The notes under the pieces are model-generated. The model did no database searches, was not told the DNA's origin, and saw nothing but the letters and a program-made list of their open reading frames with translations. Below, piece after piece: positions 11,232-38,484 of a DNA stretch of 45,665 nt (positions are counted from its first letter, which is position 1; every line of letters starts with the position of its first letter). The stretch comes from Chloroflexota bacterium (GTDB lineage Bacteria > Chloroflexota > Dehalococcoidia > Lucifugimonadales > Lucifugimonadaceae): NCBI GenBank assembly GCA_022564545.1, contig JADFLG010000005.1, positions 1-45,665 of the forward strand. The letters run 5' to 3'. Position numbers and translations under genes: made by a program.

Positions 11232-11702
11232 CTACAGCTGCTCGATTTCGTGGAGTATCTCGCCTGATGCTGGGATCGAGTCTGTATAGACGTTCGACCA
11301 GCGAATTATTCCCTCCGCGTCGATGATGAAGACCGACCGGCGGGAGTTTCCTCGTTCGTCGTTGAATACGTCGTAGGCACGGGACACTTCACCATGCGGC
11401 CAGAAATCACTTGCCACCGGGAATGGAACGCCGTCGGGCAGGTCGTCGTCGTTCATGCTCGCCGTCCATGCCTTCTGGACAGCCAGCGAATCGCAACTGA
11501 TCTCGATAATCTCAGCACCCGCCGCCTGGAACTTCTCGTAATTTGCGCGGAACCCGCGCACCTGGTTAGTTCACCCGCCAGTGAAGCTGGCCGGGTGGAA
11601 CCCGATAACCACGATCTTCCCGCGAAAATCGGAAAGCGTGACGCTGCCCGAGTGGCTGTTCAGCGTGAAATCGGGGGCCGGAGTGCCGGGTTGAAGTGCC
11701 AT
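11232..11702 (-). CDS. ahpE: AhpE-type peroxiredoxin, predicted selenoprotein (Sec44 encoded by UGA)
   Basis: A 156-residue thioredoxin-fold peroxidase read through an in-frame TGA at 11573-11571. The N-terminal part is MALQPGTPAPDFTLNSHSG. The catalytic loop reads PASFTGG-U-TNQVRGF, so the UGA takes exactly the place of the peroxidatic cysteine in the PxxxTxxC motif. The frame continues unbroken with the AhpE signature SDFWPHGEVSRAYDVFND and SVFIIDAEGIIRW. The length matches mycobacterial AhpE (153 residues). One other cysteine is present (Cys70, EISCDS). A 7-bp hairpin starts 11 nt after the UGA. TGA acts as a normal stop in neighbouring genes, so this is not a changed code. A pseudogene is possible, but no other damage is seen. 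It lies 46 bp after an amidohydrolase gene on the same strand. Sec peroxiredoxins are known from other bacteria. Confidence 0.85.
11544..11560 (-). promoter_or_regulatory. SECIS-like hairpin downstream of the UGA codon
   Basis: On the mRNA, UGCGCGG-GUU-CCGCGCA forms a perfect 7-bp stem with a GUU loop. The loop begins 17 nt after the UGA. The published bacterial SECIS model asks for a stem-loop with its loop about 16-37 nt after UGA and a G in the first two loop positions, and this fits both. Confidence 0.72.
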
Positions 11703-11748: not shown

Positions 11749-12600
11749 TTACTCGTCGTCCCAGTCCCAGATGCGCATCGCGTTGTCTCCGAGCAGTTTT
11801 GCCTGCTCATCTGGAGTCAGCCAGTTAAAGCCCTCCCGTACCAGGCGGAGCTCATCTTCAAGCGACAGCCAACCGTGGTCGACCCTGTGATGGCCCGGAT
11901 AGCCCGTGCCCCACAAACAGCGTTCGATACCGAACGCGTCGACCGCCATCTTGACGACATCGTGCATGTCGGCGAACGGGAATACCCCATCCGACCGGCT
12001 GTGGACGTCGGATATCTTGATGTGGACGTTCTCGTGACCTGCCAGTGCCAGCACGGGCCTGTATTCGTCCCAGCCCGGTGCCATTTCCGGCATCGGGTAC
12101 ATCATGTGGTCGATCAGCCAGGTGATCCCCGGATATTTCGCTGCTGCGTAGTCGAGCTGGTGGGCGTTGCCCGTTCGATTGTGGACCTGGACGATTCCTG
12201 AACGCTTTTCGATTTGCCTGAACATCTCGGCGTTCTCAGGACGTTTTAATATCTCCACATCCGGGTAGTAGTCGGGGTGAAACCTGAAGCCGGCCATTCC
12301 GCGTTCGTCCATCCAGTAGACGGCTTTTTCGGCGTTGTCGTTTGCCAGCGGGTCGACCAGGCCCATCGAAGCAAACCGGCCGGGATAGTTGATGGCAGAA
12401 TCTGCGACGTAGCCGTTGTCCCATGTCGACCACGACGTCTGGACAAGAACTGTCTTATCGACACCGTTGGCGTCCATATCATCGATCAAAAGCTCGGCAT
12501 TGCCCGACTCGGTCGGCTCAGAGGTCCAGTTCGGGGCGGTCGGCCCTATCGGCGCGATCGGCGGCATCTCCCAGATATGCACGTGGGTATCGACAATCAT
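11749..12600 (-). CDS. amidohydrolase 2-family protein (PF04909 type)
   Basis: 283 residues. The N-terminal MIVDTHVHIWE carries the metal-binding pair His6 and His8. Later likely ligands are the histidines in SGIVQVHNRTG and ITWLIDHMM. The end, GDNAMRIWDWDD, is the usual closing GNNA-type helix of this family. One oddity: the stretch that often reads GSDYP, with the catalytic Asp, here reads WGTGYPGHH, so the usual Asp is replaced by Gly. Some family subgroups carry this form, so activity is not excluded. Relatives include 2-pyrone-4,6-dicarboxylate lactonase and gamma-resorcylate decarboxylase. The substrate is unknown. It probably forms a two-gene operon with the peroxiredoxin. Confidence 0.82.
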   Translation of the reverse strand: MIVDTHVHIWEMPPIAPIGPTAPNWTSEPTESGNAELLIDDMDANGVDKTVLVQTSWSTWDNGYVADSAINYPGRFASMGLVDPLANDNAEKAVYWMDERGMAGFRFHPDYYPDVEILKRPENAEMFRQIEKRSGIVQVHNRTGNAHQLDYAAAKYPGITWLIDHMMYPMPEMAPGWDEYRPVLALAGHENVHIKISDVHSRSDGVFPFADMHDVVKMAVDAFGIERCLWGTGYPGHHRVDHGWLSLEDELRLVREGFNWLTPDEQAKLLGDNAMRIWDWDDE

Positions 12601-38096: not shown

Positions 38097-38226
38097 TCGC
38101 CCGAGCAGGTTTTTTTGCATCCCAAGCATTGCCAACCGCGTCTCATCAAACAATCAATCTAGTTGAGGAAGTTTGAGCCCCGATTAAGCGGTGACCAGAC
38201 AAGCGCGAAGTAAAACAGGAATACGA

Positions 38227-38484
38227 ATGCCCAGAACTGAACAACCACCAGCCGACGGCGTCGCAATCGTCTACACCCACCCGACCTGCGGGTACTGCGA
38301 TCTACTGAAGGAAGACCTGACAAAAGACGGTATTCCATTTCGGGAAATAGACGTTTCAAAAGAGCCCGGTCGGTGGACCGAGGTCGAACGGCTGTCCGGG
38401 GGCGACAGGATCACGCCCGTTATGGTCACCGCCAGTGGCGAAGTCGAAATCGGTTATAAGGGGATCGGCTGCAACTACAACTAG
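38227..38484 (+). CDS. glutaredoxin-like protein
   Basis: 85 residues from the ATG at 38227, which follows AGGAATACGA; a longer frame starts at 38191 but lacks a good site. YTHPTCGYCDLLKEDL gives the CxxC active site (Cys21, Cys24), and RITPVMV the cis-Pro of the thioredoxin fold. A further Cys lies near the end (GIGCNYN). It is shorter than ArsC. Its place after the copper genes suggests thiol repair during metal stress, by inference. Confidence 0.85.
   Translation: MPRTEQPPADGVAIVYTHPTCGYCDLLKEDLTKDGIPFREIDVSKEPGRWTEVERLSGGDRITPVMVTASGEVEIGYKGIGCNYN

Follow-up and report, generated by a model that had tools for sequence, protein, structure and literature searches.

An AhpE-like peroxiredoxin gene of a Chloroflexota bacterium with a probable selenocysteine codon at the peroxidatic position

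A TGA triplet stands where the catalytic cysteine codon is expected in a peroxiredoxin gene of a Chloroflexota bacterium, and the locus raises the question of whether this codon is read as selenocysteine (Sec), is translated in some other manner, or marks a damaged or misassembled gene. The gene lies in a window of 45,665 nucleotides, the whole stretch of DNA that was analysed. This window is a contig (C111), also bearing rpoB and rpoC, of a 2.9 Mb genome that is 93% complete in 195 contigs.

An in-frame TGA shared by homologues

The peroxiredoxin gene occupies 11232..11702 on the minus strand and encodes 156 residues, from an ATG at 11702 to a TAG at 11232. Its translation, MALQPGTPAPDFTL...GFHPASFTGG-U-TNQVRGF...SDFWPHGEV..., has a single TGA at 11573-11571, codon 44, and frame reading together with column alignment placed this codon (11571..11573, minus strand) at the peroxidatic position as Sec44. 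The original prediction had described one frame broken only by TGA at the catalytic Cys of PxxxTxxC, with the AhpE signature SDFWPHG further on; the TGA is indeed the sole interruption, and the signature is present. Without recoding, a plain ORF listing presents the gene as two ORFs of 79 aa (11810-11571) and 109 aa (11561-11232), and the match to PF00578 spans the TGA, covering residues 5-135 of the peroxiredoxin (E 3e-36). When the genes of the window were roughly delimited, 17 of 37 ORFs ended in TGA, in agreement with the claim that it is a normal stop nearby, and several homologues of the peroxiredoxin gene also end in TGA. Thus, TGA is not generally reassigned. Inspection of the window by eye gave no second convincing candidate for a TGA-recoded gene, and Rfam at gathering thresholds found two tRNAs and nothing else in it. 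At the start of the contig, positions 3-593 on the plus strand contain an ORF with imperfect amino-acid repeats (PFAGGVSSGVAVGVGVGDSSGSVPVSS).

Homologues were sampled from 294 genomes of the class with a match cut-off of E <= 1e-20. Such a homologue was found in 96 genomes, 62 of which had a matching gene with exactly one TGA, including both genomes of the same genus and the four genomes of the same family that had a match. Every TGA homologue fetched from the class carried its one TGA at the peroxidatic column in a frame free of TAA and TAG, which excludes a chance TGA, and all non-TGA homologues had TGC or TGT at that column. The UGA is therefore aligned to the conserved redox Cys of homologues, as in other bacterial selenoproteins, and on two further points raised in the original prediction the outcome was in its favour: Cys and UGA alternate at the column, and close relatives have TGA there, not Cys. 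Beyond the class, the TGA form was present in other Chloroflexota and in two Acidobacteria records. On the protein tree the Sec/Cys state requires at least seven changes. Four class TGA genes of about 200 aa (L119, L121, L127 and L135, with FTCVU or FTFVU) were placed apart in the tree, and we regard them as a second, Prx1/AhpC-like group with TGA at the peroxidatic Cys, the group name being our own judgement. Three peroxiredoxin-like matches from Poribacteria (L036, L037 and L038) belong to another type, their TGA being located in a WUPFC (UxxC) motif.

Selenocysteine machinery and the region downstream of the UGA

The machinery for Sec insertion, which the original prediction had named as a check, is present in the source genome: a tRNA-Sec with anticodon TCA (UCA), SelA (501 bits), SelB (318 bits) and SelD (366 bits). 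The selB gene is cut by a contig end, and SelB is whole in the single-contig genome of a member of the same genus (G190). The selD gene has a single TGA of its own at CAGU, the known Sec/Cys site of SelD. Hits to tRNA-Sec were checked with ARAGORN because RF01852 also picks up tRNA-Ser above its cut-off. Among 14 PF00578 matches in the genome, six had one TGA, and on reading the sequences each of these was located at an active-site Cys position (FTGGU in the AhpE-type gene, and FTRGU, YWUTFC, SWUAC, GWUGYC and YCUINC). The five of them other than the AhpE-type gene are the thioredoxin-fold genes L161, L162, L165, L167 and L171, and the genome is thus rich in selenoproteins.

Across the class, selA accompanied the TGA form in 62/62 genomes and was found in 20/34 genomes that had Cys forms only (Fisher 5.8e-8, a value that overstates the evidence because related genomes are not independent). 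Two sister sequences in the protein tree (SH-aLRT 100) differ in the same way: L112 has Sec and its genome (G241) has selA, while L114 has Cys (FTGGC, TGC) and its 96% complete genome (G043) showed none of the selA, selB and tRNA-Sec that were searched for. The converse is not strict, since selB and tRNA-Sec both occur in the genome that carries L031, a TGT form. Searches for tRNA-Sec came up empty in two drafts with the TGA form (G248 and G296).

A putative bSECIS hairpin, UGCGCGG-GUU-CCGCGCA, is located at 11544..11560 on the minus strand, with 7 bp, a predicted energy of -11.9 kcal/mol and its loop starting 17 nt after the UGA. Folding stability was expressed as a z score against synonymous shuffles, negative values being more stable. 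In a 42-nt window starting three codons past the UGA, 44 non-redundant Sec genes had a mean z of -2.09 +/- 0.21 (s.e.), compared with -0.10 +/- 0.21 at the corresponding place in 33 Cys genes. A weaker signal persisted to about 18 codons downstream in the Sec genes, and other windows were near zero in Sec and Cys genes alike. For the query hairpin by itself, 1.7-1.8% of synonymous variants folded as well across the 8-9 codons in which it lies; over 17 codons the difference from synonymous variants was not significant, and no signal emerged when stretches of 60 or 85 nt around the UGA were folded. Codons +3 to +8, a block picked after the hairpin was seen, were identical (6/6) between the query and the three homologues nearest to it, compared with 25 of 88 comparable codons elsewhere; over codons +3 to +9 identity was noted for its four closest homologues. 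The hairpin, with its GUU loop, agrees with the published bSECIS model N1-G-[G/U]-N-N2 (PMC13188914). We dropped that model as evidence, since it matches many other positions in these G+C-rich genes and so has little discriminating power: just after the codon it matched 34 of 67 Sec genes and 9 of 36 Cys genes, and at other offsets 17-36 of the 67 Sec genes. For a predicted stem-loop the shuffle-based group test is stronger evidence than a match to the model. The predicted structure varies by clade, being short with its loop at about +18 in the genus of the query, and longer with its loop at about +30 in many others.

These results can be weighed against two readings that do without selenium. 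A draft assembly in 195 contigs leaves room for the TGA to be a sequencing or assembly error, or a nonsense mutation that has made a pseudogene of an ordinary Cys peroxiredoxin. However, an assembly error is unlikely because independent relatives share the TGA, in the same genus and family and in 62 of the 96 class genomes with a homologue, and in one column in every homologue fetched. Apart from the TGA the frame is unbroken and conserved, and its catalytic residues do not vary, so that we consider this reading vanishingly improbable. If UGA were instead read as Trp, Cys or Gly, generally or by context, or were simply read through, a full-length protein would result in any such case. Against this, TGA is common as a terminal stop here, the only alternate at the column is Cys, and tRNA-Sec, SelA, SelB and SelD are all present, with selA tracking the TGA form; a non-selenium reading is thus highly improbable. 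Based on the recoding signature, the machinery, the conservation of the column and the catalytic residues, the TGA at the catalytic position of this Chloroflexota peroxiredoxin gene almost certainly codes for selenocysteine, as the original prediction held.

Subtype, gene neighbours and possible reductant

The seven best sequence matches of the query among solved structures were all Mycobacterium tuberculosis AhpE, the best with 89 bits; one of the seven, titled AhpC/TSA family protein, is the AhpE R116A mutant. An AlphaFold2 model of the query (pLDDT 95.7) had M. tuberculosis AhpE as its closest solved fold (TM 0.91, rmsd 1.4), and Prx1-type structures came near AhpE in E-value in this search but with larger rmsd. 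The subfamily placement is that of these sequence and fold matches, the position of the AhpE fragment in the protein tree being unsupported. All of the Pro/Thr/Cp/Arg site of the AhpE type is present in the query; across 63 Sec sequences Thr41, Sec44 and Arg122 do not vary, and Pro is replaced in some relatives. No second Cys column reaches 8 of the 63 Sec sequences, and therefore there is no conserved resolving Cys. Both the AhpE-like and the 1-Cys character claimed at the outset are supported by these comparisons, and on this sequence and model evidence the gene very probably encodes a Sec-containing AhpE-like peroxiredoxin of the 1-Cys type (here 1-Sec).

In the mechanism that we propose, SelB and Sec-tRNA(UCA) would read UGA codon 44 as Sec, aided by a downstream mRNA stem-loop predicted from the sequence. 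The Sec44 selenolate, held by Thr41 and Arg122, would then attack peroxide and become a selenenic acid. A second substrate would reduce the selenenic acid, in the manner of mycoredoxin-1/mycothiol for AhpE; the likeliest candidates are a glutaredoxin-like protein, a small thiol or both. The peroxidase activity, substrate and reductant of the Sec peroxiredoxin are proposed here by analogy.

The gene immediately upstream, an Amidohydro_2 gene at 11749..12600 on the same minus strand, ends 46 nt before the peroxiredoxin start. This neighbour is kept in six loci, so the two genes are possibly cotranscribed; we claim no functional link. Its retention could be taken to favour a real Sec protein that is mainly not a peroxidase, acting instead as a redox sensor or relay, or as an enzyme tied to the amidohydrolase. 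However, the query retains the complete Pro/Thr/Sec/Arg site, of which Thr, Sec and Arg do not vary, and by eye the neighbours in more distant relatives are different (a glycine dehydrogenase subunit, methyltransferases), with no common pathway. A mainly non-peroxidase role is unlikely for these reasons, and we retain the peroxidase reading.

No reductase was seen by eye among the conserved gene neighbours of the peroxiredoxin loci. A glutaredoxin-like protein (CGYC) encoded at 38191..38484 on the plus strand, 27 kb from the peroxiredoxin gene and unlinked to it, is the only match above the PF00462 cut-off in the genome and is a candidate reductant. In L032 (2464-3210), from another member of the Chloroflexota, the Sec-AhpE sequence continues in frame into a C-terminal glutaredoxin-like CxxC domain (PF00462, E 1e-13), and the same fusion was seen by eye in L150 and L154, also from other Chloroflexota. 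A glutaredoxin-like donor is preferred because AhpE uses mycoredoxin-1, relatives have fusions and the genome has one glutaredoxin, although naming a glutaredoxin-type protein as the electron donor is a guess to which we give about even odds.

Comparison with known peroxiredoxins and selenoproteins

We believe the finding has three implications. An uncultured group appears to retain a selenium-dependent peroxidase whose gene could be cut short or labelled a pseudogene by annotation pipelines. The sister sequences with Sec and selA (L112/G241) and with Cys and without selA (L114/G043) offer a natural pair for asking what a 1-Cys peroxiredoxin gains from Sec. The Sec-AhpE-glutaredoxin fusions suggest what the electron donor of a Sec peroxiredoxin may be. 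It may equally well prove true or false that the Chloroflexota hold a distinct clade of AhpE-type selenoperoxidases with glutaredoxin-like reductants, fused in some lineages, in which Sec is the norm for much of the class and Cys occurs where the machinery was lost.

M. tuberculosis AhpE (Rv2238c) is a 1-Cys peroxiredoxin with mycoredoxin-1/mycothiol as its reductant (PMC4360819, PMC4965862), and its Thr42, Cys45 and Arg116 have the roles of Thr41, Sec44 and Arg122 in the query (PMC4965862). The two proteins are alike in SDFWPHG, in these three counterparts and in having no conserved resolving Cys. The query differs in having Sec for Cys and a His where AhpE has Phe37, in an identity of 33%, and in a host that is not an actinobacterium. 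For two NCBIfam peroxiredoxin families of the same superfamily the query is far under the curated cut-offs. The query scored 91.8 bits against a curated cut-off of 270 for peroxi_PrxU (NF040737), a selenoprotein by its name, and therefore falls outside that family. It scored 26.2 against a cut-off of 298 for thiol peroxidase Prx-SUH (NF045827), a listed selenoprotein (PMC13188914).

Sec peroxiredoxins as such were already known, as the original prediction stated. A Sec peroxiredoxin (Prx, PF00578, TxxU) was first characterised in Eubacterium acidaminophilum, and in the Sargasso Sea and GOS metagenomes few selenoproteins were as abundant as Sec Prx (PMC1088965, PMC2398784, PMC13188914). The selenoproteome reviews covered file Prx under COG1225/PF00578, and sequences of the present kind may well be contained under the name Prx in marine metagenome sets. 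AhpE and Chloroflexi or Chloroflexota are unmentioned in the selenoproteome surveys and reviews covered (texts without supplements, few of them subscription papers), and Chloroflexi or SAR202 are unmentioned in a further one. The AhpE subtype, its spread through the Chloroflexota and the glutaredoxin fusions thus look under-described. The prediction that an AhpE-like Sec form is poorly described stands for the subtype and its host range. The gene is less exceptional than had been held, because the PxxxTxxU family is known and many members of the class have the Sec form. The query resembles the known Sec Prx in having Sec at the peroxidatic site of PxxxTxxU, the AhpC/TSA fold and a predicted stem-loop downstream, and it differs in being AhpE-like and in falling far below the PrxU cut-off (92 against 270 bits).
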